Assembly: GCA_020852405.1 (NCBI GenBank)
Contig: JADZAX010000248.1
Span: forward strand, 1 to 35,134
Origin: Verrucomicrobiales bacterium
GTDB taxonomy: Bacteria > Verrucomicrobiota > Verrucomicrobiia > Verrucomicrobiales > DEV007
Direction: 5' to 3'
DNA length: 35,134 nt
The notes below the pieces were generated by a model. That model made no database searches, was not told where the DNA came from, and was given only the letters and a program-made list of their open reading frames with translations. Below are positions 8,807-31,057 of this stretch, piece after piece (positions within the stretch are counted from its first letter, which is position 1; every line of letters begins with the position of its first letter). A program made the translations under genes and the position numbers.

Positions 8807-10096
8807 TCAGGCCAGAATTTCTTTCAGAACACCGGTGCTGTCACCATGGCGCTCCGCGGCGACACCGATCCCCTGCAGCATGGTGAGCCACGCATTGCAG
8901 AGTGGCGTGTCCTTGGGTGCAACGATGTTCTGGCCGAGTTTGAAACCCGCTCCTCCGCCGGTGAGGATGGTGGGGCAATTGCTCAGTTCATGACCCGTGC
9001 GAATGTTGCTGCCGTAGGCCAGGGCGACATTGTCAAAAAGACTGCTGCCATTGGCTTCCTTGGTGGCTTTGAGCTTGTCGAGGAAGCCCGCCAGCAGTTC
9101 GCTCTGCGCGAGATCCCGCCGTTGCGAGGCGTCGAGCTTTTCGCCGAGTGTGGTGTGGTAGTGGCTCATGTCGTGCGGATGCACTTTGATCCCCAGCGCC
9201 GTCAGCAGGGTGTTCACCGGTTGGCGGAAAGTCATCACCCGGGTGCTGTCGGTCTGCATTGCAGCGATCATGATGTCGTAAATGAGCTTGATTTCCCCGC
9301 GCCCGTCCACGCCGGCCTGGGGCTCGGGAAGCGGGGCTTTTGGTTGTGGGACCCCCATCCACTGCTCTTCTTTGGCAAGCCGGATTTCGATGTCGCGGAT
9401 GCCCTGGAAGTACTCATCGAGCTTGGCATTGTCGTTCTTGGCCAGCCCGCGCCGGAGTGACTTCGCATTGTCGAGCACCGCGTCCAGCACGCTGCGTTTT
9501 TGGGCCAGCATGGCCTTCTGTTGTTCGATAGGAGTGCTGTCTTTGGCGAAAAGCCGGTGAAAAGCCGCCAAGGGCCCGTTTTGGCCGCCCACCGGTTTTC
9601 CGCTGACATCCCAGGCCATCGACAATCCCGGGCCATGACCGCTGAGATCGCCCGTCTGGCTGCCATTGAACTGCAGGGAGGAAAACCGCGTCTCCAGACC
9701 GAGCTGCGCCGCTGCGACCTGGTCCGCACTGATGCTGTTGTGGAAGCTCTGTCCCGGCTGGGCGTAGCGATTGGCCCCCGTGAGCCACATGGTGCTGCCC
9801 CAGTGCCCTTCGTTCGAGTATTTGTTCCAAAGCCCCTGCACCACCGAAATGTCCGCCTTGTGGCGCTCCAACGGCTTGAGTCCCACCGGCAGCTGATAGT
9901 CCGATCCAGGTGTCTTGATGTCGGGATACCAGGTGCTCTCCGTGATCCCCCAGCCGAACCCGAGGAAGATCAGGCGTTTCGGTGGCGCGGCAGGGGCCGC
10001 TGCGGCAGCGAAGCGGCTGAATCCAAGCGATTCCAGCATCGGCAGGGCGATGACGGCGGTGGAGGATTGGAGGAGGCGGCGGCGTGTGTTCTTCAT
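8807..10096 (-). CDS. DUF1552 family exported protein
   Basis: Function unknown; DUF1552 proteins are typical of Planctomycetes, Verrucomicrobia and some myxobacteria and are usually encoded next to DUF1592-type cytochrome proteins, as here with only 9 nt between genes. The 429-residue product starts with a twin-Arg-like export signal ([10 protein letters not shown], then a hydrophobic Ala/Leu stretch ending around residue 35). Family-typical features seen are [11 protein letters not shown], a Trp/Gly-rich [12 protein letters not shown] segment, and a C-terminal HDMSHYHTT segment followed by [20 protein letters not shown]. Use of the Tat pathway would mean folding before export, perhaps with a cofactor, but no cofactor motif is recognisable. 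It is probably a partner or chaperone of the diheme protein, which is inference from conserved pairing. Confidence 0.85.
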
Positions 10097-10105
10097 GGTG
10101 CTGAA

Positions 10106-13100: not shown

Positions 13101-13645
13101 GCTTCCCGGCCGAGAGTCTGGTACTGCTCGAACTGGTTCGCCGACATGAAAAGATCCGATCCAAAGGTGTCAAAGCTTCCCGTGCCGGTGTCCGTTGGCA
13201 AATCGGAGACGTTGATCTCGACCCCGAGCAATTCCCGCAAGGTGTTCTTGTATTCGCGCCGGTTGAGCCGCCGCATCGTGATCACCCCGTGCTGGTCGTT
13301 GAGGGTGCGCCGCGCCGAGACCATCGCGTTCGACAGATCCTCGAGCAAATCAGCCTTGGCTTCGTTGCCGGGCTGCTTTTCGTCCTCCGGCGGCATGTCG
13401 CCGGAGTTCATGGCATTGAGAATCTTCTGCCATTTCTCGGCCACTTCCAAGCCCGTGATCTGGAATGGCAGATCATCGACGCGAAACTTTCCCTTTTGTT
13501 TCTCCGGGCCATGACAGCTCACACAGTGTTCTTTGAAAAGGGAACGGTGCTTGTCCGGAATCGCGGGGTGAGGGGGCTCTTCCGCGGGCCGGACCAGTGA
13601 CGGGGCGACGAACAAGGCCGCCAGGAAAGGAGGTGCGAGTCGCAT
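10106..13645 (-). CDS. DUF1587/DUF1595/DUF1592/DUF1588/DUF1585 diheme c-type cytochrome protein with duplicated insert
   Basis: Exported multidomain protein of 1179 residues, characteristic of PVC bacteria; exact role not established, probably extracytoplasmic electron transfer or oxidation. It begins with a short signal peptide (to about 20), then a planctomycete-type cytochrome c domain with CVSCH at 41-45, DUF1587 (124-190, RRLNRREYKNTLRELLG), two tandem copies of a roughly 250-residue module (198-451 and 480-729), DUF1595 (about 745-815), DUF1592 (about 825-950, RLSYFLWG), DUF1588 (about 965-1060) with a second CASCH near 1047-1051 followed by the family signature DPIGFGLENFD, and DUF1585 (about 1095-1175). 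The two CXXCH motifs imply two covalently bound hemes. The duplicated module is unusual; one copy is the common arrangement as I recall it. It sits 16 nt after the alpha/beta hydrolase gene and 9 nt before DUF1552. Confidence 0.9.
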   Translation of the reverse strand: MRLAPPFLAALFVAPSLVRPAEEPPHPAIPDKHRSLFKEHCVSCHGPEKQKGKFRVDDLPFQITGLEVAEKWQKILNAMNSGDMPPEDEKQPGNEAKADLLEDLSNAMVSARRTLNDQHGVITMRRLNRREYKNTLRELLGVEINVSDLPTDTGTGSFDTFGSDLFMSANQFEQYQTLGREALEEAFVWQAAEGEHRKLRYEVEDTLKTITKTYQDNLDALERATQWAKAVDEAAARPENAEVVAAIRKEAKNDDFFRREWARIQGAPAPETFGFQTVENNADKANRALGYAAKMGTGYMRPYHEHYLGQPHLDTGAYLTIMAGNDIGNDTLSIYVPPSWPVGDYTVRVRIAATEQAPPERRFIEFGTHPRNGQVMSTHEVTGTLAAPQIIEIPLTLTKDHVDRDNRTLFIREKGSNDHYTQTRRIFNEGKSKNGIGPELAIWVDWMEIERKSKTASGVAKFGIGNNRQVGSVSANGLGKVRYECETANDKVSNYVAYTIDARERARQWVKAVEEAAAKPDNTDIVARLKKESKNDAIFRRSWDKIPGAPNPRTFGFDKKGENDADMANDSLGENWQKYHEYYLSRPALDQGAYLGTPTMHPAVMALGFLQLPVPAEWHSGDYVLRVRLAAAKEARPEQRFLEAGMHPRNGMVRATFEVTGTMEAPQIVEMPFTLTRVQDDPGDRTLFIREKGAWDNNEEGGRKRQEAVKRNGIGPEAVLWIDYMEIERLDSVAKIGAPGLASLEIPLDDATAAPAAAEVRAAIQRFATVAFRGTEPPSGYLERLTMIYDSQLKAGGKHSNALKETLAVVLSSPMFLYLAEPAADEKRRPLTGQELATRLSYFLWGAPPDEILLQLAKQGELMKPEVLAAQTARLLDDPRSGDLVQGLVSQWLGMDRLDFFEVNRPKFPRFDDSTKLAAKHEVYETFAHLLKHNAPLNDLLKADYVVINHLLADFYGIPGVEGDAFQKVALPENSPRGGLLGMAAIAVMGGNGERTSPVERGAWVLRKLLNDPPPPAPANVPQITRLAGKVLTTRERLQMHQEDAQCASCHRKIDPIGFGLENFDAVGQWRTEDSYQVMDEKGQPVKGASKTWHIEANAAIHKGPEFKDFFGLRDFIAGQSVDFATGFSGVLIQYALGRPIGFRDEPLISDMLTAARKENFGLRTFVQSLVASKEFHTK
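11459..12208 (-). repeat. Second copy of ~250-residue internal duplication in the DUF1592-type protein
   Basis: This encodes residues 480-729 of the diheme protein. It aligns end to end with residues 198-451: both begin K-x-RYE, contain R-x-R/T-QW-x-KAV-x-EAAA, GAP-x-P-x-TFGF, YHE-x-YL, GDY-x-x-RVR, HPRNG, EVTGT, APQI, RTLFIREKG and KNGIGPE or RNGIGPE, and end MEIER. By eye about half of aligned residues match, with a few short gaps. Confidence 0.85.
12293..13054 (-). repeat. First copy of ~250-residue internal duplication in the DUF1592-type protein
   Basis: This encodes residues 198-451, directly after DUF1587. The beta-rich part (GDYTVRVRIAAT, RFIEFGTHPRNG, RTLFIREKG, LAIWVDWMEIER) looks like a carbohydrate-binding-type sandwich; the N-terminal part is helical and charged. 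A linker of about 28 residues (from KSKTASGVAKFG) separates it from the second copy. Substitutions are spread across the whole length, so the duplication is not recent. Confidence 0.85.
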
Positions 13646-13661: not shown

Positions 13662-14720
13662 TTACTTCCTCTGGTTCATCTCACAATCAGGATCCAGCGG
13701 CACCGGGGACCCCGTGCGATCGACCGGATGATTGAACAGATACCGCCAGACCTCCTCATGGATGAAACCGCCCGAGGCATCCTTCCCCGCGCTGCCTCCG
13801 GGCACCACAGTGGTGTGGGCCCGGCCGGGATCGTTTTTGACATCGCTGTCGGTGATGAGCCTCCGGGTGTTGGCGAAGGGAGGCATGGCGTGATCCACAT
13901 TGACGATCGCGCCGTGTTGGTGCAATCCCAGCATCTGCCAGGAGCGGCAGTAGTGGTCGCCCGTCCACCCTCCGTCCAGCACATGGGTGAAGCCAAAGAA
14001 CCGGTTGGAAGGCGTCGCCGAAGGAAATCCCTGCCAGGTTTCCGTATTGTCCCGGGGACCGGAGAACATGACCACCCGGCCCACCTTTTGGTGGATCGCA
14101 AACCGCGCCGCCGTCGTGCTGCCGTGGGAAATGCCGCTCATGATGACATTTTCCCACCGCAGTCCCTGCCCGTCACTGCTAAGAAACTGTCCCCATTGAC
14201 CCTGCGGATTCTCTTTGTCGAGCCACTTCACGAATTGCAGCGCCCGCTCCATCATCCCATCAGGACGGGGTATGCTGACCAACGGACTGTGATCCTCACC
14301 GGTTGCCGCTTCCAGGCGGATTTTTCCCAGGCTGGTGCCATCGTTGAGCGTTTCCTTGCTCAGACCTGAAAACCAACGGTTGGCATAACTCACCTGGATG
14401 CCGTGGAGACCGTAGGAGGCGACCCGTTCGAAGAGTCCCGCATTGTGGTCCATCAACCAGATCACCAGTTTCCCCTGTGGCGCGACGCGGGTGTCCACGG
14501 TGGCGTGTTCCAGATCACGGACTTTACCGTCCTTGCCGGCGAACAGAAAGTCGATCTCGGGGTGCTCGCGGGTCCGGGGGTCGATCTCGCTGGCTCGCTT
14601 CGTCAGATCATACCGCTGGGGGGACGGATCATGATAGACGGAAGCCTTGGGGGAGGAATCTGCAGCGGAGACGAACCCGGCCAGGAGGATCAGAAATGCA
14701 GGGAGAATGGCTTTGGTCAT
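13662..14720 (-). CDS. Exported alpha/beta hydrolase-like protein
   Basis: Probable serine hydrolase outside the cytoplasm; substrate unknown. The product has 352 residues with a signal peptide (MTKAILPAFLILLAGFVSAA). A nucleophile elbow GISHGS places the candidate Ser at 198, after a beta strand (WENVIMS), and is followed by the AARFAIHQKVGRVVMFSGP helix-strand pattern of alpha/beta hydrolases. The acid residue is uncertain; NVDHAMPP and the GGFIHEEVWRYL region near the C-terminus are candidates for the acid and His. The overall sequence recalls the BPSS1187-type hydrolases found in Verrucomicrobia, which is recollection rather than a search result. It sits 40 nt after an SGNH hydrolase and 16 nt before the DUF1592-type gene. 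Confidence 0.75.
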   Translation of the reverse strand: MTKAILPAFLILLAGFVSAADSSPKASVYHDPSPQRYDLTKRASEIDPRTREHPEIDFLFAGKDGKVRDLEHATVDTRVAPQGKLVIWLMDHNAGLFERVASYGLHGIQVSYANRWFSGLSKETLNDGTSLGKIRLEAATGEDHSPLVSIPRPDGMMERALQFVKWLDKENPQGQWGQFLSSDGQGLRWENVIMSGISHGSTTAARFAIHQKVGRVVMFSGPRDNTETWQGFPSATPSNRFFGFTHVLDGGWTGDHYCRSWQMLGLHQHGAIVNVDHAMPPFANTRRLITDSDVKNDPGRAHTTVVPGGSAGKDASGGFIHEEVWRYLFNHPVDRTGSPVPLDPDCEMNQRK

Positions 14721-15686: not shown

Positions 15687-17051
15687 TCATTGAGGGGTTT
15701 TGCTGAGTCGGATGGATTTGATCCGGATCCGATCGTCAGCAGAACCGGCCGGAACAGGGTCGAGTCGGAGGCGGATCATAGGCCCCCCGTAGGATGGGTT
15801 GTCGGCGAGGCGGATGCTCAGCAAATGGAACTTTCCGTCCGGGTGGAGGGGGAAGTCGAGATGGTCTGTGGCGGCGGGGGATTCTTCTCCGAGGTGCTGC
15901 CAGTATACCGTGCCGGTTCGGTGCGGGGTGCTCCAAGCGGCTTCGATGAGGAGGAAGGGCGCCTCTGCGGCCTTCCAGAAAGTGAATGGGCTGATCAAGT
16001 GTGGATCGTCCTGTTGCGGTGTCAAATCGAGCATGCCCGTGATCGGCCAGCCCCGGTCGGTGATGCGGGCGTGGTGCCAACCCTGGCGGTCGCCAGAAAA
16101 AGTCCAGGCGGGAAGCACCGTGGAACGCACCGCCGTCGCGCGGGCCCTGATCTCCTCCAAGCTTCCGGCCACCAGTTCGTAGCGGAATTCGAATGAGATG
16201 TTGTGGTCGAGGATTTCCCATGCCTGCCCGGCGAGGTAACCGGTGGCATTGCCAAATGGATCGTTCGGTCCGGGCTGCCCCGCGAAGCCTCCAGTGAAGA
16301 AGATCCTTCCGGGGGTGACCAGTCCCAGGCCTTGGTTGTCCGCGTTCAACAGGGCCGACCAGTTCTCGGTTCCGTGCCAAAAGGTCCATGGATGCTCGCC
16401 GGTGGATTTGGGCACCTCAGTGACGGCGTCGCCGGTGAAGGGACTCGCCCCGGTGTAACTGACAACCCGGTGGAAAGACGCGTTGGCATACACCGCCGGC
16501 AGTTCCTGGAGTCTGGCAGGATATTGGGTGTGGTCCGGTCGCGCGTTGCTGAGGAGGGCCCGGACTTTCACCACGGGGCCGTCGAGTTCGAGCCAGGAAT
16601 CGAAGGTGCATTCGCCGGGCACATGGTTGAGGGGCCATTGCAGGGGCTGGCACTTCACATGGAGAATGTGGCCGTCATTCTCGTGGGCGATCAGTCGGCC
16701 AGGATTTTTGAAGTCGTCACCCGACTGGATGGGGTTCCAGCCAAGGTGTGACCAATGCTTGGCCGGCTCTTGACCATCCGCACGGAAGGGCACTGGACCG
16801 GAGAAAAACGACAGCTGCACCTGGCGGCCGAGGTCGAAGTTGTTGATCAGGTTTTGCCCCCCCGGCTTCGCCAGGAACACCACGGCCCCCCCGTGGGTGA
16901 GATCCACGCCCACCTTGATCTGGCCGTTTTCGAGAAAGCTCAGCTTTGCCCCGGGAGGGACCTGCGCGGCAGCATCCTCCTCCGCGCACGACGGCACAGG
17001 CAGTGCCACAAACAGCGCCTGTGCCCCGACCATGAATTTCAGGAGCTTCAT
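15687..17051 (-). CDS. Secreted protein of unknown function, possible galactose-mutarotase-like fold
   Basis: I do not recognise a named family. The product has 454 residues with a signal peptide ending near residue 23 (VPSCAEED). A Cys lies just before that cleavage zone, but the context is not a convincing lipobox. The body is beta-rich, with repeated short strands and many Trp, His and Gly residues. The N-terminal part (IKVGVDLTHGGAVVFL, then NLINNFDLGRQVQLSFFSG) resembles the opening of supersandwich, mutarotase-like carbohydrate-active proteins. The C-terminal third (from about 330: GDRQGWHHARITD, APFLLIEAAWSTP, IRIKSIRL) looks like a separate carbohydrate-binding sandwich. Neighbours (SGNH hydrolase, deacetylase, sulfatases) support a role in glycan handling, which is inference. 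Gaps are 74 nt upstream and 95 nt downstream to the chosen SGNH start. Confidence 0.6.
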   Translation of the reverse strand: MKLLKFMVGAQALFVALPVPSCAEEDAAAQVPPGAKLSFLENGQIKVGVDLTHGGAVVFLAKPGGQNLINNFDLGRQVQLSFFSGPVPFRADGQEPAKHWSHLGWNPIQSGDDFKNPGRLIAHENDGHILHVKCQPLQWPLNHVPGECTFDSWLELDGPVVKVRALLSNARPDHTQYPARLQELPAVYANASFHRVVSYTGASPFTGDAVTEVPKSTGEHPWTFWHGTENWSALLNADNQGLGLVTPGRIFFTGGFAGQPGPNDPFGNATGYLAGQAWEILDHNISFEFRYELVAGSLEEIRARATAVRSTVLPAWTFSGDRQGWHHARITDRGWPITGMLDLTPQQDDPHLISPFTFWKAAEAPFLLIEAAWSTPHRTGTVYWQHLGEESPAATDHLDFPLHPDGKFHLLSIRLADNPSYGGPMIRLRLDPVPAGSADDRIRIKSIRLSKTPQ

Positions 17052-17125: not shown

Positions 17126-18244
17126 TCATGGCCCTGTGATCGGTTGCATTCCGTGTTTCCGACCGAGTCCGAACTGGTCCCCCTGATGCACCGGAAGGCC
17201 GTCTTGGAAATCGATTTCGAGCAGTTTCTCGCTGGCGACATGCCGGCCTTGCTCATCCTCAAGGGTGGTGAGGACCCGGTTTGCCGCCACCTCGACGACC
17301 TCGCCGCTGGAGGGATAGGCAAAGCGGCCGTCCAGGCTGAAGGTGACCCAGCCGGGGTCGTCACGGCAGACGATGCTGCCGAGCTGCTTGGGCGGCATGA
17401 CCGTCGCGTCGAAATAATGCACCCGCTGGTTGAACCCGTCGCAAACCCAGATCTCCCGTTCATCCGGGGTCAGGCCGATGCCATGGCTCGGACAGCCATG
17501 ACGTTTGACCGGTCCTTGGGAGAAGCCCCGCACTTCGACCCGGTGCAGCATTTTGCCTGTCGAGGTATCACCGATCTCGAAGCCGAGGAGGCCGTTCACA
17601 TTGACAAAGCAGAGCGAGCCTTTGGCATTCACAGTGAAGGGACGGATGGGCGCGCTGAAGGGGCCGACTTCTTTCACGATCCCGTGTGTGGCCGTGTCGA
17701 CCACCCTGAGCATCGGCGAGCGCAGTCCGGCGAGGTAGGCATGCGCTCCGGAAGCGTCGACCACCGTGTTGTGCGCCCCGGTCTGTGGTGTGTTGATCCG
17801 TTTCAGGAGGCTGCCATCCACCGCGTTCACCACGTTCCAGAAGTCCTTCTCGAAAGACGGTTGGTAAAGGAACCTCCCGTCCGCAGTCATGGACATGCGG
17901 TCGCAGCCTCCGTCAAAGGGTTTTCGCCAGAGCAACTCACCGGAAACCAGGTCGAGACATGACAGCGTATGGGTCGTGCTGATGAACAGGCGCCGGGTGG
18001 CGGCATTCGCACAAATTCCCTTCACGTTTCGGGGAGCGCCCTTTTCATCGGGGTCACTAAAGGCAATCCGTTTCACAAATTTGTGGCCCTCATCCATGTC
18101 GAAAACCAGCACCCCGTGCCCTCCCCAAGCGAGGTCGTTGCGGATGCCTGGGGTGGCGACGTAGAGTAAATGCGTTTCGCTCTCCGCCGCCCGGACACGG
18201 ACCGTGAGGAGGAGCAGAATCAGGAGACACCGGAACCCGTTCAT
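17126..18244 (-). CDS. Exported YncE-like beta-propeller protein
   Basis: Secreted or periplasmic propeller of 372 residues; no catalytic assignment is possible. A signal peptide (MNGFRCLLILLLLTVRVRAAES) is followed by repeated blade motifs of the YVTN/YncE kind: THLLYVATPG, RRLFISTTHTLSCLDLVSGELLW, GRFLYQPS, GAHAYLAGLRSPMLRVVDTATHGIV, GSLCFVNVNGLLGFEI, REIWVCDGFNQRVHYFD and GRFAYPSSGEVVEVA. Seven blades fit the length. Such propellers often serve as protein-interaction scaffolds or carry quinone or metal cofactors; no cofactor ligands can be named here. Gaps are 36 nt after the polysaccharide deacetylase gene and 74 nt before the unknown secreted protein. Confidence 0.78.
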   Translation of the reverse strand: MNGFRCLLILLLLTVRVRAAESETHLLYVATPGIRNDLAWGGHGVLVFDMDEGHKFVKRIAFSDPDEKGAPRNVKGICANAATRRLFISTTHTLSCLDLVSGELLWRKPFDGGCDRMSMTADGRFLYQPSFEKDFWNVVNAVDGSLLKRINTPQTGAHNTVVDASGAHAYLAGLRSPMLRVVDTATHGIVKEVGPFSAPIRPFTVNAKGSLCFVNVNGLLGFEIGDTSTGKMLHRVEVRGFSQGPVKRHGCPSHGIGLTPDEREIWVCDGFNQRVHYFDATVMPPKQLGSIVCRDDPGWVTFSLDGRFAYPSSGEVVEVAANRVLTTLEDEQGRHVASEKLLEIDFQDGLPVHQGDQFGLGRKHGMQPITGP

Positions 18245-18280: not shown

Positions 18281-19048
18281 TCAGGGCTGTTGCGGAGCCA
18301 GATACCGCTCCAACTCTCGGAGGGCGACCACTTTGCAGCCTTCCTGTTTCAAATGGTCGAGGTATTGCGCGAATTTTTCGGGATCGGTGTTCACCCAGGG
18401 ATGCTTGATGTCGGGCACGCCGTGAAAGGTCATCACCGCGATCTTTCCATCGCGGGCTCCGGCCACGGCGGCTTTGAACTGTTCCAGCGTGCTTTCCGGC
18501 TTTCCGTCGAAAGCTTGTGGCAGGGTCAGGGGCTCATCCTTGGCGGGATCGTAGACTTGGGCTCCGCCGGCCCGGGCGAAGCGGTACCCGCGATCCCTCA
18601 GGATCTTCACGGCCTCCACGCTCGTCTGATATCCCGGATAACAGAAGCTCCTGGGCAGGGCGATCCACTGGGCCTGGCATTGCTGCTCGATGTATTGAAT
18701 GTCGGCGGCGATCTGCTCGGAGGACTGTTTCCCCACTCCTGTATGACGCCGGGTGTGATTGCCGATTTCAAAGCCGGTGGTGTCGAGCGCCTTGATCTGT
18801 TCCCAGGTCATGTAATGCTTCTTGTCCAAAGTGAATTCGAAACCTTCGGTGATGAAGAAAGTCGCTCCGAAGCCGTATTTCTTCAGCAGTGGGGCCGCGA
18901 AGGTGGCATGGCTGGCGACCGAATCATCAAAGGTCAGGACCACCAGACGGTCCGGAACGGGTTCCACAGCCCGGGAAGCTGACAGCAGGAAAAGACCCCA
19001 GAGGAGCCCGGGGATGGCATTGGAGAGGAGTCCTGGTCGGTGACGCAT
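18281..19048 (-). CDS. Exported polysaccharide deacetylase (NodB-type)
   Basis: Carbohydrate esterase family 4-like enzyme, expected to remove N- or O-acetyl groups from a polysaccharide outside the cytoplasm. From the ATG at 19048 it has 255 residues with a signal peptide (hydrophobic IPGLLWGLFLLSASRA). Motif 1 is LTFDDS (Asp41, Asp42) and motif 2 is GNHTRRH (His98, His102), which with Asp42 form the usual metal triad. Motif 3 is RSFCYPGY and the catalytic-His motif is VMTFHGVP. The reading frame extends to 19237, but that part overlaps the preceding sulfatase relic and lacks a signal peptide at its N-terminus. It fits with the acetylesterase and sulfatases upstream as an enzyme stripping decorations from glycan. 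Confidence 0.88.
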   Translation of the reverse strand: MRHRPGLLSNAIPGLLWGLFLLSASRAVEPVPDRLVVLTFDDSVASHATFAAPLLKKYGFGATFFITEGFEFTLDKKHYMTWEQIKALDTTGFEIGNHTRRHTGVGKQSSEQIAADIQYIEQQCQAQWIALPRSFCYPGYQTSVEAVKILRDRGYRFARAGGAQVYDPAKDEPLTLPQAFDGKPESTLEQFKAAVAGARDGKIAVMTFHGVPDIKHPWVNTDPEKFAQYLDHLKQEGCKVVALRELERYLAPQQP

Positions 19049-19151
19049 GCGGTTGGAATGTTGGGATTTTGGAGAGGATTTCAGCGGCGTATCCGGTGAA
19101 GGCGGGAGGATGGGATGCCTGCGGGGCGGAGCCCATATCCGGCGGGCCCAT

Positions 19152-19412
19152 CTACTTCCCACGTTTTTGAGCAGGAGGGACGTTGGGAAATTTCGGAGCC
19201 AGCCCGAGTTTGCGGCAGTCCGCATCGACTTCGTCACTCCAAGCTTGGTAGAGGGCTTTCAACTCCGCGAGTTTGCCGGGCTCCGAGGCGGCGAGGTCGA
19301 GCTGCTCGCCGATGTCATCGGCGAGGATGACGATGATGTTGGGACGGGGGGCTGCCGCGCCCGAGGCGGACGCCAGTCCCAAACAACAGGCGAGCAGGAG
19401 AGATCTGGTCAT
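19152..19412 (-). pseudogene. Sulfatase relic: N-terminal and C-terminal ends joined in frame
   Basis: The 86-codon frame starts with an intact signal peptide and the first strand of a type I sulfatase (RPNIIVILADDIG, including the metal-binding Asp pair at 32-33). It then passes directly into what looks like a sulfatase C-terminal tail (GEQLDLAASEPGKLAELKAL and so on, compare DDPGEKSDVAAQHPG in the sulfatase at 27111-28658). The roughly 400 residues carrying the formylglycine motif and the rest of the active site are missing, so sulfatase activity is not possible. The frame remains open with a start and stop, so a short exported peptide could still be made. An inverted repeat lies exactly at the junction. 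It lies between the five-domain fusion gene (28 nt) and the polysaccharide deacetylase gene (103 nt). Confidence 0.8.
19305..19325. repeat. Perfect inverted repeat at the sulfatase relic junction
   Basis: Arms CTCGCCGATG and CATCGGCGAG are exact reverse complements with a single central base. On the coding strand the repeat spells the Leu-Ala-Asp-Asp-Ile-Gly-Glu codons, exactly where the N-terminal sulfatase motif meets the C-terminal tail. It may mark microhomology used in the deletion. Confidence 0.8.
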
Positions 19413-19440: not shown

Positions 19441-22400
19441 TCACTTCACTTTGAGCACCCCGCGCATGATGATGTGGTGCCCGGGGAAAGAGCAGAAGTA
19501 AGGATAGTCGGCCGGCCTTGCCGGGGCGGTGAATTCGATGATTTCTTCCTTCCCATGGTCGAGCAACTGGCTGTGCCAAATGATGTCCGGGCTTTCGGGG
19601 ATGAATCCATTCTCGAAGCCCTTGGCCCCCAGAGCGAGGGCCTTGTTGGCCAGTTCGTCGATCTTCCCGGGATTCACCAGGAGAATGTTGTGCGGCATGA
19701 AGTCCGGATTGGCGAACGTGAGGCGGACTTTTTTTCCGGCGGTCACAGTGAGCTCTTTCACGTCATAAGTGAGACGCTCCGGAACGGTGGCGATGCGGAT
19801 GGTGGTCAGTTCGGGCGTGTCGGAGAGGATGCCGGACTTGCCGGCGGCGGCTTCCACTTCCCCGGCCACGAGCCCTCCATGCATGGATGCCTCCACATTG
19901 AACCACAAATGCTGCACCGTGTTGGCCGCAATCCGGGCATGAGGTTCAGGAGATTTGAGGAGTTGGCCGAGCAGCTCGACGTTCCGGACGTTGTGTTGCT
20001 GGTGGACCCAGAGGGCTTCGAGCAGCGGATGAGCGTCCTCTTTCTTGGCGGGATCGAACTGTTTCATCCACTGCTGGGTGGCGGCGATGACTTCCTTGGT
20101 GTCACGACCGCTCAGTTCCACACGGGTGCGCTGACGGACGCCGTCGGTGGGGTGTTTCAGGTTGTCGAGAAGTGCAGGGATTGGCTGGCCGGCAATGGCC
20201 ACCGGCTTCTGCAGGGGACGCCCCGTGGCGGTCAGGCGGTAAATCCGGCCGTGCTGGTGGTCGCGGTTGGGGTCACGCACATTGTGCTGCATGTGTCCGA
20301 TGATGACGTTGTGCCAGTCTGCGAAATAGAGGGCGCCGTCCTCCCCAAAAATGGCGTCCGAGGGGCGGAAATTTTTGTCCCCGCTCATGAGCAGTCCGCG
20401 AGATTTTTCCTCCACCTTGCTGCCATCAGCCTGGATGGTGGTGACGGTGAGCTCATCCCCCGCCGGCTCGCCCCAGACCGCACCGGTTTCGGGGTTCCGC
20501 TCAAGATGGTAGTGCTTGATCCCCAGGAATCCGATGACGTTGCAGATCAGGAAATCTCCCTGCATCGATTCGGGGAAATGGGTGCTGGAAACGATCTCGC
20601 TCGCGGTCACGGGACGCACTTCTTTTTTCAGGAGTTCGTGCATTTTGAAGCCGCTCCCTTCCGGGCGCACCTGGTAGGCGCGTCCACCGGTGCCGTCGGT
20701 GGCATAGTGGTATCCCCAGGTGTCGAAAGAAATGCCGTGGGGATTGGGCGAATTGGCCGCATGCATCGCGATGGTGAAGCGGCGCGGATCAAACCGGTAC
20801 ATCGCGGAGGCTTCCGCCTGCAGGGACGGCCCCCAGGGATGCTCGTGGTTGTGCACCATAAAGACACCGCTCTGCCAGTAGATGCCTCCATCCGGTCCAT
20901 AGACGAGATTGTTCGCCCCATGGTGGGTGTCGGAGGAATCCAGACCCTGCAGCATGATGGTGCGTTCATCGGCGATGTCGTCGCCGTCGGTGTCTTTGAG
21001 GAAGAGGATCTCCGGGGGGCAGGTCACCAGAACCCCGCCATTCCAGAATTCGAAACCCAATGGATTCTGGACCTTGGCGAACTCCGTGACCCGGTCAGCC
21101 TTGCCGTCCTTGTCGTCGTCGTGCAGGATCAGCAGGGCATCGTTCATGGGCTTGAGGGGTTCCCACTTTGGGTAGGTCCCCCAGACTGATGCCCAAAGAC
21201 GGCCTTTGCCATCGACCTGCATCTGCACCGGATTGACGAGCTGGGGGAACCGTGATTCATCGGCGAAGAGGTTCACCTCGAATCCTTTGGCGACGGCCAT
21301 GTGCTTGATTCCCTCCTCGCCGCTGATGTAGTTCAGCGTGCCTTCCTTCATCGCGCTCGAGCTTTTGCTTTTGCCGCCCACGTTGGAGATGACTTCGATG
21401 GGTTTGGGGACATTGCTGTCGTCAATGGTCTTGTCCTTTCCGGTGGCCAGAGCCCAGACGCGTTCGTCTCGGTTGGCGGTCATGACATCGAGCATGGACT
21501 GCTCGTGCTGGAGGACGACGGCGTTGTTTTGATCATTGGTGAAAGTCAGGGTGGAACGTCCTCCCCAGACATCATTGCCATCGCGGGCGCGGTAGCGGTT
21601 GTTCCAGTGGTAATCTTTGTCGAGGACCGCCTCGCGCAGCGCATCCAGCGAGGGCGCGGCGGCGACTTCCTTGCCGGTCAGGGCCTTGGCGATCACTTCG
21701 GCGAGCTGGCGGTTGCCTTCCGGTGTCAGGTGTACCCCGTTGATGGTGAGCGGTGTCTTGGCGTCCTTGAAAAGTTCCTGCGTGGGATGGAAGAGATCGA
21801 CATAGGCCACCCCGGCTTCTTTGGCGGCGGCTTCGGTGGCTTTGGTGTAGGCCTCAAGCTGCAGGTTGTGCGTTTTGCCGTCGGGCACGTTGACGTTGTG
21901 GGTGTCCTCATGGGCGATGGGACTGAAGAGCACGACTCGGGGAAAACTCCGGCCATTGGCTTTGGTTCCCCGGACATACCGCACGAACTCGACGAGTGTC
22001 TTGCGGTAATCATCCGCCTTTTCGACTCCATCAAACGATTCGTTGTAGCCGAAGAAACCGAACACCACGTCGGCTTTGACGTGGCGCAGATAGTCGGTCA
22101 TGTGGATGTGGCCTTTGCTGCGCGGGAAAGAACCGGGTCGATCCCCGCTCGCGCTCATGTTGCGGAAACTCACCTGCTGGCCGGGAATCTGGCTTTGCAG
22201 CAGCGTTTCCATCCAGCCATCGTGCTGCATGCGGTCCGGCAAGCCATTTCCGACAATGGCGACGACATCGTTCTTGGCGAAGGCGAAGGTCGCCGGATCA
22301 CGGTAGTCCTCCGGCACCGGGGCCAGCTCGGGCTCTTTGGTGGTCTCCGCAGGCTTGGCGCCGCCTTGCTTGGAGGCGGGTTTGCCCGGTTTGCCGGCGA

Positions 22401-23958
22401 AGGTGAAGTAGACCGGCTTGCCCTGGTTTTTGACATCGATCTCCATCGCTTCCGGGGCGTCCACGCCGCTGATGCGGAACACTTCTTTTCGGTCCTCATC
22501 CAGTAGGGTCAGAGTGAATCCATCGAGCCGGGCCTCGAACCCTTGGCGGTTCCAGATGCCGATTTTCTCGATGTCCTTTGCGGTGCCAAGATCGGCCTCC
22601 CACCAGGGATTCGTGGTTCCCGCATTGGAGGTATGAGTCTGTCCTCCTTTGTTGTAGTCGGGATCCTTGTTGCCGTCGAGCGCCTTGGCTGCCACTGCTC
22701 CCCCATTGCTGCTGGATTGTGTGGCTTTCGCCCCGGACGCGACGTTTTTGCCACCGCTCAGGATTTCCACTTCCGCCAGGGTAAGAATGCGCTTGTCACC
22801 GGGCAACTCGATGCGGACAAAGCGGGCCGGTTTGCCTGTGACTAGAGCTGGCGCGGAAGGCCCCGCGGGATTGGCGGCATTCGCCGGCTTGGTTACCTTC
22901 TTGTCATCCCGTTGGGCTTTCTGGCTCTCCTTCTTGGCCGGTTTGGCCTGGGGATCCTTGGTCTTGCTGTTCGCCGGGATCGGACTCTCCCAGCCCGAGT
23001 ACATCTCCGGCTTGATTCCCCGCGCGTAGCTTCCTCCGCCGAAAGTGTTGGGTTTGAAGGGGCCCACAAAAGAGATGTCCAGGTCCGGCTTGATGGCCTC
23101 CTCCATCCCAAGGGACCAAAGCATGCCGTTCACCAGGAGGCGGCGGTAGCCGTCATTGGTGATGTCCTCGGACGTGCCATACAGCGAGGTGAAGCCGCGG
23201 CCTTTTTTGCCGGAGGCGGACTGGTAGGTGCGGGTCCATTCGGACGGCATCGGCGGCTTGGTTTCGTCGGCGGGTGACTCCGGGGTCATGCCATTGAGGG
23301 GCTGAGCCATGGTCAGCACATCTCCATCGGTCGGTTTTCCGACATACCCGCCGGCCTGGACCCAGACGTCCTTCACCCCGCGCAGGATCGGATGGTCTTT
23401 CATCTTCTCGACGATGCTGATGCGGGTGCTTTGTGAGTGGTTCCTGCCGTAATGACCCACCCAGGTCTGTCCTAGCACCTGGTGGCCGAAGCCCAGCTCA
23501 TATTCCGGTCCTTTGAAGTCGAAGGAGTATTTTGGGAAGGGAGCGTCCTGTCCCATCTTGAAACCATGAGTCGCGGTCCGCATCCCGACGACGGGGCCTC
23601 CCCGGTTCAGATAAGCATCGAAATGCTGCATTTGTTCCTTCGGGAAGTCCTGGAACCGCAGGAACACCACCGCGAGGTCGGCGGTGTCGAGCGCCTCCAT
23701 CCCCGGCATGTTCGAGTTGCCCGCGACAATTTCGCCGGTGGCGGGATCGATGTTGAACAGCACCGTGCATTTGAATCCCTGATGCTTGGCGAGGAGCCGG
23801 GCCAGAGCGGGCAGGGACTCCTCGGAGCGGTATTCATGATCGCCTGCCAGAAAAACGATGTGCCTGCCTTTGCCGGGGCCTTCAGTGCCTTCAAAAACAA
23901 GGGGAGCGGCACTGGCAACGCCAGCGAATGACAACAGGATGAGGAGGAGGAGTTTCAT
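19441..23958 (-). CDS. Five-domain exported fusion: ThuA, discoidin, SGNH-like, propeller dehydrogenase, cupredoxin
   Basis: Very large exported protein of 1505 residues from the ATG at 23958, which begins the signal peptide [17 protein letters not shown]. Domains: ThuA/trehalose-utilisation-like (about 25-300; [25 protein letters not shown]), a Lys/Ala-rich linker (about 320-370), F5/8 type C discoidin (about 373-526), a second linker, an SGNH-like domain (about 560-765) with VGNG where GDS is expected, a TIGR02604-type propeller dehydrogenase (about 880-1245; [28 protein letters not shown]), short HEAT-like repeats (about 1265-1360) and a C-terminal cupredoxin (about 1386-1505). The cupredoxin has a plausible type 1 copper site: His in MPHNIL, then Cys, His and Met in [12 protein letters not shown]. 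It carries no CXXCH. It may bind glycan and oxidise a sugar with copper as electron acceptor; the activity is inferred. Confidence 0.87.
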
Positions 23959-24005: not shown

Positions 24006-25592
24006 TCATCTGGGCTTTTGCTCCAGGGTGACGGGTTTTGCGGGATGACGGCGCACGGCGACGTCATTTTTCTGTGGAAGTCCTTTGGTGCTGCGGCCTG
24101 CGGTGATCAGCTTTTCAAGTAGGGATTGCATCCCGGCAACCCTTCCGGGTTCCACGGCGGCAAGATTTTTGGCTTCACCGAGATCGCTTGAAAGATCGTA
24201 GAGCTGGACCGGTTGGCTCTGGTCGCCCCCTTTGCTCCAACCCCCTGAGCCGGGCGCGGCGATGTATTTCCACGAACCCAGGCGCACCGCAGGGATGCCA
24301 TTGATCGAAGCGCTGACGGCGTTTTCACGAACCGGCTCGTCCCCGCCTTTGAGGAGCGGCAGCAGGCTGAAGCTGTCCTCCCCCGCGTTGTCCGGAAGTC
24401 TGGCATCGAGGATTTCGGCGAAGGTGGCCATGAGATCGGCCTGGTGCACGAGTTGGTCGCAGACACTGCCGGATTTCACGACACCGGGCCAGCGGACAAT
24501 GAACGGAACCCGGTGGCCTCCCTCCCACGCATCCGCCTTGTAGCCGCGCAGAGGTCCGCTGGGATGGTGTCCCATCTTTTCAAGCTCGCCGACACCGATG
24601 TAAGGCGCGCAGCCATTGTCGCTGGTGAAAACGACGAGGGTGTTCCCGGCGGCACCGCTTCTGTCCAAAGCCTCCAGGACACGGCCGATGACGGCGTCAG
24701 TCTCCATCACCAGATCGGCATAGCGGTTCATCCCGCTCTTGTCCTTCCAATCATCATTCACCGCCAGCGGAGTGTGGGGACTGGTAAACGGGAGATAAAG
24801 CAGGAAAGGCTCCGGGGTTTTCGCCTGGCGTTCGATGAAATCCACCGCGTGTTCGCCCAGGGCGGGAAGGATGCCTTTGAGGTTCCAGTCTTTGAGGGCG
24901 GGACCCTGGGTGCTGGCGAGGTTGTTTGTAAAATCCTCCGGGGGCAGGAAGTCGGTGGGAATACCCAGAGTCCGGTCATTCTCGAGGAAGCAGTAGGGTG
25001 GCCAGTTGGGGACATCGGTGCCGAAGTAGCTGTCGAATCCCCGCGTCACCGGTCCCCCGGGGATGGGCTTGGTGAAGACGCCTCGCCACGCGGCCAGGTG
25101 TTCCTCCGTGGGGACGGGAGCCTCGTCTTTGTTTCCCTTCTTGCCTGCCCCCTGGAAGAATCGGCGCTGCGAATCATCAATGGGCCAGTCCCAGCCGAGA
25201 TGCCACTTGCCGATGGCCGCGGTGCGGTAGCCCTGTTGCCGGGCAAGAGTGCCGATGGTCATGCGGTCGGGAGAGATCAAAGGAGGACCGAAAACACCCA
25301 CGATGCCGCTTTGCAAACGGGAACGCCAGTGATAGCGGCCGGTGAGGAGCGTGTAGCGCGAAGGTGAGCAGACGCCGGAGGATGAATGTCCGTCGGTGAA
25401 GCGCATCCCCTGGGAGGCCAGCGCGTCAATGTGCGGGGTGGGGATTTTTCCCAACCCGGGATGGTAACAATGGACATCACCGTAACCAAGGTCGTCGGCG
25501 TAGAGGACGACGATGTTGGGCCGCGCCGCCAAGGCCGCGGCTCCGGTCAGGAACCAGGCAAGCAGAAGCCAGGCAGCAGGGTGGGGTTTCAT
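24006..25592 (-). CDS. Type I sulfatase (formylglycine-dependent arylsulfatase family)
   Basis: Hydrolyses a sulfate ester, probably on a polysaccharide, outside the cytoplasm. The chosen ATG gives 528 residues with signal peptide [20 protein letters not shown]; the frame runs open further upstream only because it overlaps the next sulfatase gene. Metal ligands Asp32 and Asp33 (YADDLGYGD), the modification motif Cys74-Ser-Pro-Ser-Arg78 followed by YTLLTGR, the GKWHLGWDW block and [10 protein letters not shown] are all present. The Cys must be converted to formylglycine by a maturation enzyme not encoded in this window. The C-terminal subdomain ([20 protein letters not shown]) is intact. It is 25 nt after another sulfatase and 47 nt before the five-domain fusion, so an operon is likely. 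Confidence 0.93.
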
Positions 25593-25617
25593 GTGGGAGG
25601 GTTCGGGGTGCTCTCTC

Positions 25618-27114
25618 TCACCGGGGATAATCCGCGCCGGTGAGGCTGTGGAGGACGGATTCCTGCCATTGGTGGAGCGTCTCCTCCAATGACCCGGCGG
25701 TGTCGGGCTGTTGGCTAAGGAGATTGGTCTTTTCTGCGGGGTCGGCCTCGAGATCGAAGAGCTCCTTTTTGGGGGCGCCTTTTTTCTGCTCGTGGATGAC
25801 GAGCTTGAAGCGGCCATCAATGATGGCACGGGGACCGAGGTAATCGGCATCGGTGATCCCGGGGTGCTTGAAGTTGGTGAAATTGCGGGTCGCGATGCCT
25901 CCCATGAGCTTGACCAGAGGGGTGGTTCCTTTTTGTAGTTCCGGGTCGAGGTAGGGCTCCGCCCCGCGGAGGTTGGCACTCTTGAAATCCCAGAAAAACA
26001 GAGGCTTGGAGCGCGCGGTCATCCGGTCATCGAGCAGGGGCGTGAGGTCAATGCCGTCGAGGGGACGGTCGGGAAGCGACTGGCCGGTGAGGGCACAGAG
26101 GGTTGGCAGGAGATCGCTGGTGGACGCGCGGACGGCGGTGCTGCGGGGCTTGGGAATGCGGGCCGGCCACTCGATCAGGCCGGGGACCAAGGTGCCGCCG
26201 TCATAGACTTGGCCTTTGACCCCGCGGTGCGGAGTGACGAGCGATCCATCGGCCGATGTGCCATTGTCGCCGCAATAGAAAAGAAGTGTGTTCTCGCGGA
26301 GTCCCTCGGAGGCAAGGTGCTTCCGCAGCGTCCCGATTGAGCGGTCCATGGCCGTGATTTCGGCATAGCGTTCGCGCAGCACTTCGCCTTGGGGACGGGT
26401 CGTGGGACCTCCCGTTTCGTTCGAGGTGAGTTTGACCTTCTTTTCCTGGTATTTTGCCGGCAACTCGTCGTAAAGGGCGAGGTCCGCCGGGAGTCCGCTG
26501 TAGGGTTCATGCGGTGAGCCGAACCAGACCACGGTGAAGAACGGCTGACCGGACTGGCGGGTGCGGTCAATGAAACGGATGGCCTCTTCGATGAGAATCT
26601 CAGAACTCTCGCCCCGGATGACCTCCGGTGGTTCGCCGTTGCGCGAAAGCGATGGGTTCAGTTCGAAAAAATTGTCGTGCGACACCCATTCGTGGAATCC
26701 CATTGCACCTGGATTGGTGGGTGACGCGGCTTTCACCGGACCAAGGTGCCATTTGCCGAAATGCCCGCAATGGTAACCGGCTTTGCCGAGGATCTGGGCG
26801 ATCGTGGTTTCTTCCGGGCGGATTGAACAGCCGGGGGTGAAGGTGCCCATGCGGTTGGGATGACGACCGGTCATGAAGCTGGCACGGGTCGGGGAGCAGC
26901 TCGGATGCGCGGCATAGAAATTCTCGAACCGGAGTCCGGTGGCCGCCATTTCATCGAGGATCGGAGTTTTGAGGTTAGGGTGGCCATTGTAGCCGGTCTC
27001 CTCCCAGCCGTGGTCGTCACCCATGAGCAGGATGATGTTCGGCTGCGCCGCCATGGCCGCAGGCAGCAAAGCGGAGGCGAGCAGGAGAACAGAGAGCAGG
27101 GGTAAGGATTTCAT
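25618..27114 (-). CDS. Type I sulfatase
   Basis: Exported sulfate-ester hydrolase of 498 residues. The ATG at 27114 starts the signal peptide (MKSLPLLSVLLLASALLPAA) and overlaps the stop of the upstream sulfatase as ATGA, so the two are probably translationally coupled. Asp33 and Asp34 (LMGDDHGWEE), the canonical motif Cys73-Ser-Pro-Thr-Arg77 followed by ASFMTGR, HFGKWHLGP, FGSPHEPYSG and YCGDNGTSADG are in place, so the active site looks complete. It is distinct in sequence from both neighbouring sulfatases, so the three probably attack different linkages or positions rather than being recent duplicates. Its sulfate-ester specificity cannot be read from the sequence. Confidence 0.93.
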   Translation of the reverse strand: MKSLPLLSVLLLASALLPAAMAAQPNIILLMGDDHGWEETGYNGHPNLKTPILDEMAATGLRFENFYAAHPSCSPTRASFMTGRHPNRMGTFTPGCSIRPEETTIAQILGKAGYHCGHFGKWHLGPVKAASPTNPGAMGFHEWVSHDNFFELNPSLSRNGEPPEVIRGESSEILIEEAIRFIDRTRQSGQPFFTVVWFGSPHEPYSGLPADLALYDELPAKYQEKKVKLTSNETGGPTTRPQGEVLRERYAEITAMDRSIGTLRKHLASEGLRENTLLFYCGDNGTSADGSLVTPHRGVKGQVYDGGTLVPGLIEWPARIPKPRSTAVRASTSDLLPTLCALTGQSLPDRPLDGIDLTPLLDDRMTARSKPLFFWDFKSANLRGAEPYLDPELQKGTTPLVKLMGGIATRNFTNFKHPGITDADYLGPRAIIDGRFKLVIHEQKKGAPKKELFDLEADPAEKTNLLSQQPDTAGSLEETLHQWQESVLHSLTGADYPR

Positions 27115-28840: not shown

Positions 28841-29983
28841 TCATCGTTTGGTGCGGACCTGTTCTTCCAGCCAAGGCGACACTTTTTCCATCCACCTGGC
28901 GGCGTGTTCCCGCAGTCCGGAGCCGCTGAAATGCACGCCCTGGCCCTGGCGTTCCCGGAGGTTGCCTTTCAATGCGTCGCTGTCCGGACCTTCGAGGGCG
29001 ATCCCATCGGTCCAGAGCGATTTCTGGGCGGCGCGGATGTCGGAGGAGGCTTCGTCACCGGGGACGTGGTAACTCACGAGGGCGACAAACCAGGGAGCTT
29101 CCCAGCCAATTTCCTTGCGGGAGTCGCAGATCATTTTTTCAAGATACTCCCGGTAGAGTCTGCCGGTGAGCGTCCGGGTGGGATCTTTTTGATTGGCGTC
29201 GCTCTCACCCTGATGCCAGAGCACGGCCCGAAATCCGTGGGGTCCGGCGGCTTTCAGGCGGGTCAGAAAGGCCGCGTAAGCCTCGCCCTTGCTGGCCCAG
29301 GCTCCACCAGGGAGTTGTGCGACGCGGGTAAGGATGGTGGGGGGATTCGGAAAGGTCGTGTTTTTGGGCAGCCACTCCCGCACGCTGGTCGCACCGATAC
29401 CGCAGGGAATGAAACCGACCGGCACCCGGAAGTGCCGCACCATCGCGTCGCCCAGCGGCGGCATGAAACTCCCTCCCCGACCGCTCGCGCCCGGCTGGGG
29501 ATCATTCGCCAATTGCCAGCTGGTGCCATCGAATGAGGCCACGCGGCCGGTCTGGGTGCTTTGTTTCTCCTCTCCATGATTGGCGGAATTGGATTGTCCG
29601 GCGACGACAAAGACTTCACCGATGCCGAGGTGGTCCACGCCTGCTCCGGCCAGCACCTGACCGTTTTTCGAGACTCTCACCTCCAAACGCTGCCATCCGC
29701 CTGCCGGCGCCGTGAGGCTGCCCTGAAAGCCGTCCTTGCCAACCTGGGCCTCCCAGCTCTGCCAAGGGATCGTGTGATCCTCCGAGACCAGGCGCGTTTC
29801 GAATCTGGCCCCGGTGGGATCGATCCCCGACAGCGTGCCACGGATTCCCACCACGCCCTGATTGAGCGCATTCCGCTGGACGATCTGGTAATCAAGCGGC
29901 TCCGTCAGGGCCATCTCGGCAGCAGACAATGCGGTGGTCAGAACGGGCAGATAAGCCAGCAGTGTGAAGAAGAGGTGATTCAT
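28841..29983 (-). CDS. Sialate O-acetylesterase family protein (SASA domain)
   Basis: Exported carbohydrate esterase of the CE6/SASA type, expected to remove O-acetyl groups from sugars. The product has 380 residues from the ATG at 29983 with signal peptide MNHLFFTLLAYLPVLTTALSA. An N-terminal beta domain (about 25-125) precedes the SGNH-like catalytic domain with VFVVAGQSNSANHGE carrying the nucleophile Ser, the diagnostic AVLWHQGESDAN block and a C-terminal GVHFSGSGLREHA with the catalytic His. The start codon overlaps the stop of an 8-codon upstream ORF as ATGA, and a strong AGAGGAGG lies ahead of that mini-ORF. It lies downstream of a ThuA protein gene and upstream of three sulfatases, which supports a joint role in de-acetylating and de-sulfating glycans. 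Confidence 0.88.
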   Translation of the reverse strand: MNHLFFTLLAYLPVLTTALSAAEMALTEPLDYQIVQRNALNQGVVGIRGTLSGIDPTGARFETRLVSEDHTIPWQSWEAQVGKDGFQGSLTAPAGGWQRLEVRVSKNGQVLAGAGVDHLGIGEVFVVAGQSNSANHGEEKQSTQTGRVASFDGTSWQLANDPQPGASGRGGSFMPPLGDAMVRHFRVPVGFIPCGIGATSVREWLPKNTTFPNPPTILTRVAQLPGGAWASKGEAYAAFLTRLKAAGPHGFRAVLWHQGESDANQKDPTRTLTGRLYREYLEKMICDSRKEIGWEAPWFVALVSYHVPGDEASSDIRAAQKSLWTDGIALEGPDSDALKGNLRERQGQGVHFSGSGLREHAARWMEKVSPWLEEQVRTKR

Positions 29984-30006
29984 CCCAGGGCAAAAGACTT
30001 GCTCAT
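29980..30006 (-). CDS. Candidate 8-residue leader ORF coupled to the acetylesterase
   Basis: ATG at 30006 opens an ORF reading MSKSFALG and then TGA, which overlaps the acetylesterase ATG as ATGA. Its own ATG in turn overlaps the stop of another small ORF. AGAGGAGG lies just upstream (30008-30015), with its 3' end one nt from the ATG, close for a Shine-Dalgarno, although the first half (AGAGG) is better spaced. It may only be a translation re-initiation device. Confidence 0.3.
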   Translation of the reverse strand: MSKSFALG

Positions 30007-30152
30007 TCCTCCTCTTGGAAGACCATCGATTCGTCTTTGGCCTGAAACTCGATCCCGTAACTATCCATATCAATGGCCGGATGCCGTCCCTTGAGGAGGG
30101 TCTGGTTCCCGGGCGGGAAGGGTCCTTTTTCGCGCCTCCACGATTTTCCCAA
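30003..30152 (-). CDS. Candidate small ORF between ThuA and acetylesterase genes
   Basis: I do not recognise this product. The frame ends at TGA (30003-30005), overlapping the next mini-ORF start as ATGA. An internal ATG at 30068 gives a 21-residue acidic peptide (MDSYGIEFQAKDESMVFQEE plus one Glu). The frame is open further up, and a TTG at 30152 would give 49 residues beginning MGKSWRREKGPF. The mix of residues is protein-like and ends in an acidic tail. It could be a small protein, a translated leader for the acetylesterase, or the last fragment of a lost gene. There is no signal peptide, unlike its neighbours. Confidence 0.3.
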   Translation of the reverse strand: MGKSWRREKGPFPPGNQTLLKGRHPAIDMDSYGIEFQAKDESMVFQEEE

Positions 30153-30193: not shown

Positions 30194-31057
30194 TCACTTA
30201 GGGGCTTTTTTGGGCGGCTCGGTGCGCGGCGTCAAAAATGAATCGATCAGGGCCTTGTCGGCGTCACACGTTGCCCCGTCCTTTGGAATTGCGATGCCCG
30301 CCGTCCACAGGATGCCGTTGATCACCAGTTTCCGCATTCCCGCATTCTCCCAGGCGGAGTGCGCATCCAGACCGCTGAAGCTGAAGGATCGGCCACCATT
30401 CGGCCTCTCAAAGGACCAGGAGACGATGTCCTTGTCGCCGCCCTTGGGCGAGCCCAGTTCCACTTTGCCGGACCACACCAGAGGAGTGATGCCCTTCATG
30501 CCGGGGGTGAACTGAAAGTGGTTCAGCCACCCGTCATTGATCTTCCATGAAGTCACGCCGTGGGTGATGGGATGGTCGGGGAAGGTATCGTGGACACTGT
30601 CCCAATGGCCCCGGCTGGAAAGGGCGTTGTAAACCCCGCCCTGCCATTCCATGGACTGCTTGGCAAATGCAGGGGGAAATTCCACCGCCTGATGAATGCT
30701 GACGATTCCCACGCCGGCATCCACCAGTTTTTGCACCGTGGCGATGCGCTCCGGCGAATTCAGATAGGCCTGCTTGCCTCCGCCGTCGGTATAGAACACG
30801 ACGGATGCCGCTCCATTGAACACCGTTTCATTGGACGGCCAGTCCTCCCGGACCAGGACCGGAGTGACGCCCTCGGTCTGTTTCAGCAGTGTCTCCATCA
30901 GCCTGCAGCCTCCCAGATAATCATGATGTCCGCTCCGGTCAGCTTCTTTGACCTTTCCAGCGACGAGGATGATCTTGGCGCTCTCGCCGGCGCGGGACAG
31001 CGTGCCGAAAGCGGTGAAAGCAGCAATGGGGATGAGAAACAGAGCGCGGCGGTTCAT
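30194..31057 (-). CDS. Exported ThuA-domain protein
   Basis: ThuA (trehalose-utilisation-like) domains have a class I glutamine-amidotransferase-like fold; their reaction in PVC bacteria is not established. The product has 287 residues with a signal peptide (MNRRALFLIPIAAFTAFGTLSRA). Family features seen are IILVAGKVKEADRSGHHDY, ASVVFYTDGGG, VGIVSIHQAVEFP, FPDHPITHGV and a C-terminal KLVINGILWTAGIAIP. A short charged tail ends in EPPKKAPK. A second, divergent ThuA domain forms the N-terminus of the large fusion at 19441-23958. It is the first gene of the minus-strand secreted block, with a candidate promoter about 55 nt upstream. Confidence 0.87.
   Translation of the reverse strand: MNRRALFLIPIAAFTAFGTLSRAGESAKIILVAGKVKEADRSGHHDYLGGCRLMETLLKQTEGVTPVLVREDWPSNETVFNGAASVVFYTDGGGKQAYLNSPERIATVQKLVDAGVGIVSIHQAVEFPPAFAKQSMEWQGGVYNALSSRGHWDSVHDTFPDHPITHGVTSWKINDGWLNHFQFTPGMKGITPLVWSGKVELGSPKGGDKDIVSWSFERPNGGRSFSFSGLDAHSAWENAGMRKLVINGILWTAGIAIPKDGATCDADKALIDSFLTPRTEPPKKAPK

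Follow-up and report, generated by a model that had tools for sequence, protein, structure and literature searches.

Exchange of copper and heme modules in a widespread, predicted glycan-tethered redox protein of Verrucomicrobiota and Planctomycetota

Proteins built on the DUF7133/TIGR02604 beta-propeller are numerous in bacteria of the Planctomycetes-Verrucomicrobia-Chlamydiae (PVC) group, where they have no agreed function. The only experiment on a TIGR02604 protein found in a literature search concerns Lac161_ORF7 (AGW45552), which is verrucomicrobial, has the domains TIGR02604, HEAT and cytochrome c, and was described as a new beta-galactosidase: when purified after production in E. coli BL21(DE3)pLysS, it is reported to have released glucose from lactose, with a Km close to that of LacZ (PMC5342196). 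In Table 3 of that report, a kcat of 13.2 per s and a Km of 1.8 mM give 7.3e3, and the printed value for Lac161_ORF7 is 7.3e4 per s per M. A literature search on 'PVC-type heme-binding CxxCH' found nothing. Here, we describe a gene at positions 19441-23958 of a stretch of 35,134 nucleotides (the window; assembly GCA_020852405.1, contig JADZAX010000248.1) from a Verrucomicrobiales bacterium, in which such a propeller is joined to ThuA, lectin, SGNH-fold and predicted copper domains. The fusion proves to be genuine, and it is both conserved and widely distributed. With a probability of about 55%, it is an exported, glycan-tethered redox protein that works together with neighbouring sulfatases and esterases.

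The gene lies on the minus strand (23958..19441), as do all features described below unless stated otherwise. Its uninterrupted frame of 1505 codons plus a stop, present in the open reading frame (ORF) list and noted in the initial annotation of the window, is borne out by the translation and by full-length homologues; the corresponding frame of the plus strand contains stop codons. A signal peptide (residues 1-17; 23908..23958), read from the sequence and from the hydrophobic N-termini of complete homologues, would lead to export. It is followed by a ThuA domain with a class I glutamine-amidotransferase-like fold (residues ~20-330; 22969..23901; Pfam PF06283 at residues 46-281, 36.1 bits against a gathering cut-off of 33.4), a Lys/Ala/Pro-rich linker (residues ~331-377; 22828..22968), an F-type lectin (fucolectin) domain (residues ~378-521; 22396..22827; Pfam F5_F8_type_C and F5_F8_type_C_2 at residues 412-489), a second linker of the same composition (residues ~522-549; 22312..22395) and an SGNH-fold domain (residues ~556-760; 21679..22293; Pfam Lipase_GDSL_2 at residues 580-750, 42.5 against 32.9 bits; PDB profile match 8gkd, 1.5e-8). 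Next come the propeller (residues 881-1245; 20224..21318), matched by Pfam DUF7133 at residues 881-1243 (E 4.5e-61; 207.7 against 27 bits) and NCBIfam TIGR02604 at residues 892-1245 (184.7 bits, cut-off 122.2), a HEAT-like helical connector (residues ~1246-1375; 19834..20223; helices 713-811 of the AlphaFold2 model) and a cupredoxin of the auracyanin/azurin type (residues ~1380-1505; 19444..19821; PDB 6kol, 6.5e-15; fold match at a template modelling (TM) score of 0.87).

Two AlphaFold2 models, for which 52 and 57 relatives were aligned (mean predicted local distance difference test, pLDDT, 81.5 and 86.1), have mostly confident folds, with the linkers, also noticed in the initial annotation, as low-confidence stretches. 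By Foldseek, the first resembles ThuA-like structures (1t0b, E 1.1e-8, and 4e5v) and fucolectins (4gwi, 3lei and 2j1t), and the second auracyanins (6kol and 2aan, TM 0.87-0.88) and the pyrroloquinoline quinone (PQQ) domain of a pyranose dehydrogenase (6jt5). No SGNH structure is among the 50 Foldseek matches listed for the model; this domain is supported by profile matches and by an alternating strand-helix pattern in the model. Domain annotation and structure prediction, the check proposed earlier, recover the ThuA, SGNH-type, propeller and cupredoxin parts. The initial annotation announces five domains in its title and lists six in its text, and six is correct if the HEAT-like connector is included. 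The whole protein of 1505 residues has four cysteines (64, 980, 1139 and 1489) and no heme motif CxxCH. This member is therefore wrongly labelled by the automatic name 'heme-binding CxxCH protein', which the finding flags as misleading.

Twelve homologues align over the full length without a frame break, at 56-79% identity, one of them ending at a contig end. Within the family of the window's organism, five genomes carry the full chain (its own, G002, G007, G017 and G018), and a class-wide draw of 384 genomes yielded eight further genomes with it, in seven families altogether. In a species-level scan of 84,980 genomes, of which the best 80 loci were analysed so that all counts are lower bounds, the order ThuA-lectin-SGNH-propeller-HEAT-electron module is present at 69 loci. 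Because of these full-length homologues and full chains, an assembly artefact or a chance ORF is ruled out. The genome survey suggested at the outset finds the same architecture in two phyla, contrary to the expectation that these families occur mostly as separate proteins. By record title, which is an unreliable guide to phylum here, 46 of the 69 belong to Verrucomicrobiota, 22 to Planctomycetota and one, probably a mislabelled metagenome-assembled genome (MAG), to Proteobacteria; MAG titles such as Proteobacteria, Kuenenia or Akkermansia muciniphila seem wrong for L067, L080, L081, L091, L094, L111, L122, L125 and L142. Isolates with the full chain are Brevifollis gellanilyticus and Verrucomicrobium sp. 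BvORR034 and BvORR106. On a tree of the SGNH-propeller-HEAT core (107 sequences; quick method, with support from the Shimodaira-Hasegawa-like approximate likelihood ratio test, SH-aLRT, only), the Planctomycetota sequences, except L110, form one group within those of Verrucomicrobiota, which suggests a transfer of the chain between phyla. Furthermore, 38 places in the window's own genome match parts of the protein. At six loci (L071, L072, L074, L075, L104 and L127), a second SGNH-propeller-HEAT-cupredoxin gene, a distant relative with 33-36% identity in SGNH and propeller, closely follows the fusion gene on the same strand.

The C-terminal domain is supported as a predicted electron carrier of the type 1 copper class. 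The ligand set His1423, Cys1489, His1494 and Met1498 is invariant in 57/57 sequences, and the azurin model TIGR02695 matches residues 1396-1503 with 37.7 bits, below its equivalog cut-off of 105.1 (NCBIfam). Among the 69 full chains, 40 end in a cupredoxin (some of these ends being contig ends, for example in L097), 28 in a cupredoxin followed by a cytochrome c, an arrangement found in 20 of the 22 Planctomycetota chains, and one in a cytochrome c alone. The core tree requires three or more changes between cupredoxin and cytochrome c-only ends; these concern a well supported group of seven cores with a cytochrome end and, separately, L024 and L143. The last is nested among copper-ended chains, and in its core it shares 91% identity with its nearest relative, the cupredoxin-ended L137. 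Its tail, a cytochrome c with the motif CVTCH, is similar to the tail of L024, which in turn shows weak similarity to CcoP. The heme domain of the copper-plus-heme chains differs from this type (TIGR02603 in L122, the one scanned). By sequence comparison, then, the same place is occupied by one copper module or by two different heme modules. Since L143 and L024 are each known from one draft contig, either, taken alone, could be an assembly join; for the group of seven, which spans several families, no such join is possible. The strongest argument for an electron-carrying role of the copper domain is this natural swap of cupredoxin and cytochrome c in homologous chains, and it lends support to the copper carrier of the initial annotation.

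The propeller residues Asp1010, His1012, His1013 and Asn1072 are invariant in 28/28 sequences. When the propeller profile was compared by sequence with proteins of solved structure, the matches were weak and NHL-like only. Aligned by hhalign with GSDH proteins of related genomes, the DUF7133 profile reaches a probability of 97.2% (E 4e-11), in which His1013 falls at the position of the catalytic His and Asn1072 at that of the PQQ Asn, roles that are known from the pyranose dehydrogenase CcPDH, together with that of the PQQ-contacting Arg430 (PMC6881789). On the basis of this alignment and the 6jt5 fold match, the propeller is a predicted distant relative of the GSDH/AA12 sugar dehydrogenases, in agreement with the dehydrogenase-type propeller first proposed.

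For the lectin domain, the best solved relatives in a PDB profile search are FBP32 (6.5e-30) and the lectin domain of lectinolysin (4e-18). Together with the fucolectin folds, they make an F-type lectin a better match than the discoidin named initially, if that is taken to mean a C domain like those of coagulation factors. The basic triad His442, Arg471 and Arg477 is invariant in 52/52 sequences, and an LDGN cation-type motif is present. In F-type lectins, His-Arg-Arg is the fucose-binding triad, within the canonical motif HX24RXDX4(R/K) (PMC5712786). This motif is not matched here, the spacing being H-x28-R-x5-R with no Asp after the first Arg; NRDSFEKR of an FBP32 lectin domain aligns with NRQGFEAR. 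Because of the different spacing, either fucose or some other sugar may be bound. Glycan binding, as suggested earlier, is supported by the predicted fold and the intact triad.

The SGNH-fold domain seems to have departed from its enzymatic relatives. The position of the catalytic Ser is a Gly in this protein (GNG, residues 570-572) and varies among Gly, Ala, Thr and Ser in the family as a whole, the catalytic Asp of block V is replaced by Asn740 in 57/57 sequences, and the oxyanion residue Asn639 and His743 are retained. An active Ser-His-Asp esterase was rejected on these residues; judging from them, a normal enzyme of this kind is unlikely and a binding or altered role likely. The presence of ThuA is more variable, with at least ten changes on the core tree. 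In four unfused relatives (L018, L019, L028 and L064), which represent about two independent lineages, a ThuA gene of 52-57% identity is the next one downstream on the same strand, and in L132 a separate ThuA, 82% identical, lies ~6 kb upstream of a chain without it. Fusion and neighbourhood support the functional link of ThuA to the chain that had been surmised, and its task there would have to do with sugars. Rhizobial ThuA and ThuB act on 3-keto sugars; our literature search gave nothing useful connecting ThuA with them.

The gene is embedded in a same-strand run that points to polysaccharides. Upstream are three sulfatases reaching to 28895, of which the nearest (24006..25979; Pfam PF00884) ends 47 bp before the start codon, a SASA (sialate-O-acetylesterase-like) carbohydrate esterase (28841..30073; Pfam) and a separate, second ThuA gene (30194-31057); a polysaccharide deacetylase (18281..19237; Pfam) lies directly downstream. 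A sulfatase is found within 400 bp at 15/64 loci. The flanks of the homologues contain 57 sulfatases in 1,054 kb, or 0.054/kb, against ~0.011/kb genome-wide; this ratio of ~5x depends on a rough background, obtained from different genomes with a different threshold and with scores for no more than 90 candidates in each genome. A related PSCyt-sulfatase neighbourhood is known from freshwater Verrucomicrobia (PMC5615132).

These elements would most probably work as follows. The F-type lectin, with its fold and intact triad, would tether the exported chain to a glycan through fucose or a fucose-like ligand, and the propeller would oxidise a sugar unit of the bound glycan. Electrons would then flow to the C-terminal type 1 copper and from there to a cytochrome, a module that many relatives carry within the chain itself. 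The sugar may be processed, before or after its oxidation, by ThuA and by the SGNH-fold domain, the latter probably not a hydrolase. The target of the whole, in concert with the sulfatases and esterases encoded nearby, would be a polysaccharide with sulfate or acyl groups. Several points weigh against this reading. The Arg that contacts PQQ in soluble glucose dehydrogenase (sGDH) and CcPDH is P, T, V, A or S in 28/28 DUF7133 propellers, and is present in nearly all GSDH relatives where the motif was found. The gene pqqC was not found in 20/20 carrier or core genomes, with a model that matches in 19/286 genomes of the class. A role of fucose as ligand or food finds no corroboration, neither from a GH29 fucosidase, which was not found in seven carrier genomes, nor from a bacterial microcompartment (BMC) shell gene, which was not found in the window's own, incomplete genome; four other carrier genomes do have BMC shell genes. 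The sulfatase background is rough, as stated above, and the activity of this architecture is a prediction with a putative redox cofactor. Of the original interpretation, the exported chain, glycan binding, dehydrogenase-type propeller, copper carrier and ThuA link are retained; the mostly separate families, the discoidin and the active SGNH enzyme are not.

The residues and gene content that bear on the cofactor also bear on a more conventional explanation, a PQQ sugar dehydrogenase like sGDH or the fungal AA12 enzymes, with a fused copper carrier and scavenged PQQ. The structural match with the CcPDH PQQ domain and the aligned catalytic His and PQQ Asn speak for it, and in fungal AA12, too, a heme domain is joined to a PQQ propeller (PMC6881789). 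However, PQQ itself is doubtful as cofactor because the PQQ arginine is absent family-wide and pqqC was not found in any of the 20 carrier or core genomes, so that this explanation is judged unlikely. It is also rather unlikely that the propeller cleaves glycosides, as a hydrolase or lyase, with the copper or heme module outside the main reaction. The lactose cleavage by purified Lac161_ORF7 (PMC5342196) would fit, but host LacZ may have contaminated that preparation, since it was produced in an E. coli strain and its Km is near that of LacZ. Moreover, the release of glucose from lactose, if real, could result from hydrolysis or from oxidation followed by elimination, and hydrolysis leaves the retention of the copper ligands and the copper/heme exchange unexplained. 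A surface lectin or scaffold of degenerate enzyme domains, capturing glycans and using the cupredoxin for copper handling, would accommodate the lost Ser and Asp of the SGNH domain and the intact lectin site; yet the propeller residues are invariant and the copper domain is swapped for cytochromes, which handle no copper, and this is very unlikely.

The exchange, with a cupredoxin either replaced or followed by a heme carrier in close relatives, suggests that a redox route of polysaccharide breakdown has been overlooked, as far as can be read from sequences. A tentative extension is that DUF7133 proteins in general are exported sugar oxidases that do not use PQQ, in which the cleavage of sulfated glycans is set off by oxidation, with a 3-keto sugar as a conceivable product, ThuA and SGNH domains take care of the follow-up and copper and heme serve as interchangeable exits. 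If this were true, PVC bacteria would possess in them a redox counterpart to the glycoside hydrolases. The fusion also ties ThuA, whose role as a family is unclear, to a predicted redox step on glycans. Copper and heme exchanged on nearly identical cores give a direct handle on electron flow, and the protein's own blue copper colour could, by bleaching, report on candidate sugars.

Other genes of the window are related to some of these systems. At 5384-8044 (minus strand) lies a gene for an 886-aa DUF7133-HEAT-cytochrome c-F5/8C protein, with the domain set of Lac161_ORF7 plus a C-terminal F5/8C domain, and at 33153-35131 (plus strand) an SGNH-like gene and, after it, a further propeller of the TIGR02604 type, truncated by the contig end. 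A DUF1552 gene stands beside a PSD/PSCyt3 gene (DUF1592, DUF1588, DUF1587, DUF1585 and DUF1595) at 8807-13645 (minus strand), relatives of each being near 13-14 of the homologous loci. The minus-strand ORFs at 13662-14720, 15687-17051 and 17126-18244 (352, 454 and 372 aa) have no Pfam match above cut-off, and the urea carboxylase and allophanate hydrolase genes at 79-5377 (plus strand) are unrelated to the polysaccharide cluster.

Compared with known systems, the fusion shares the His-Arg-Arg triad, cation-type motif and fold of F-type lectins such as FBP32, lectinolysin and the fucolectin modules of S. pneumoniae, but departs from their canonical motif in its spacing and missing Asp. The Planctomycete-specific cytochrome proteins (PSCyt/PSD) occur in the same phyla and likewise combine carbohydrate-binding modules and electron carriers with sulfatase neighbours, whereas they belong to other domain families, and the main text describing them mentions neither 'cupredoxin' nor 'ThuA' (PMC5615132). 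Auracyanin and azurin have the fold and His-Cys-His-Met ligands of the C-terminal domain, but are free carriers, while here the domain is fused to an enzyme-like chain and scores below the azurin equivalog cut-off. The AA12 enzyme CcPDH of Coprinopsis cinerea also joins a propeller of the same superfamily to an electron carrier; it has the PQQ arginine and heme b, in contrast to the fusion, which lacks that Arg, has copper instead and carries ThuA, lectin and SGNH domains in addition. Finally, the PVC-type heme-binding CxxCH proteins, including Lac161_ORF7, have in common with it the propeller, the HEAT-like part and the C-terminal position of the carrier, and it differs from them in the type 1 copper domain that takes the place of the heme domain and in the added ThuA, F-type lectin and SGNH-fold domains.

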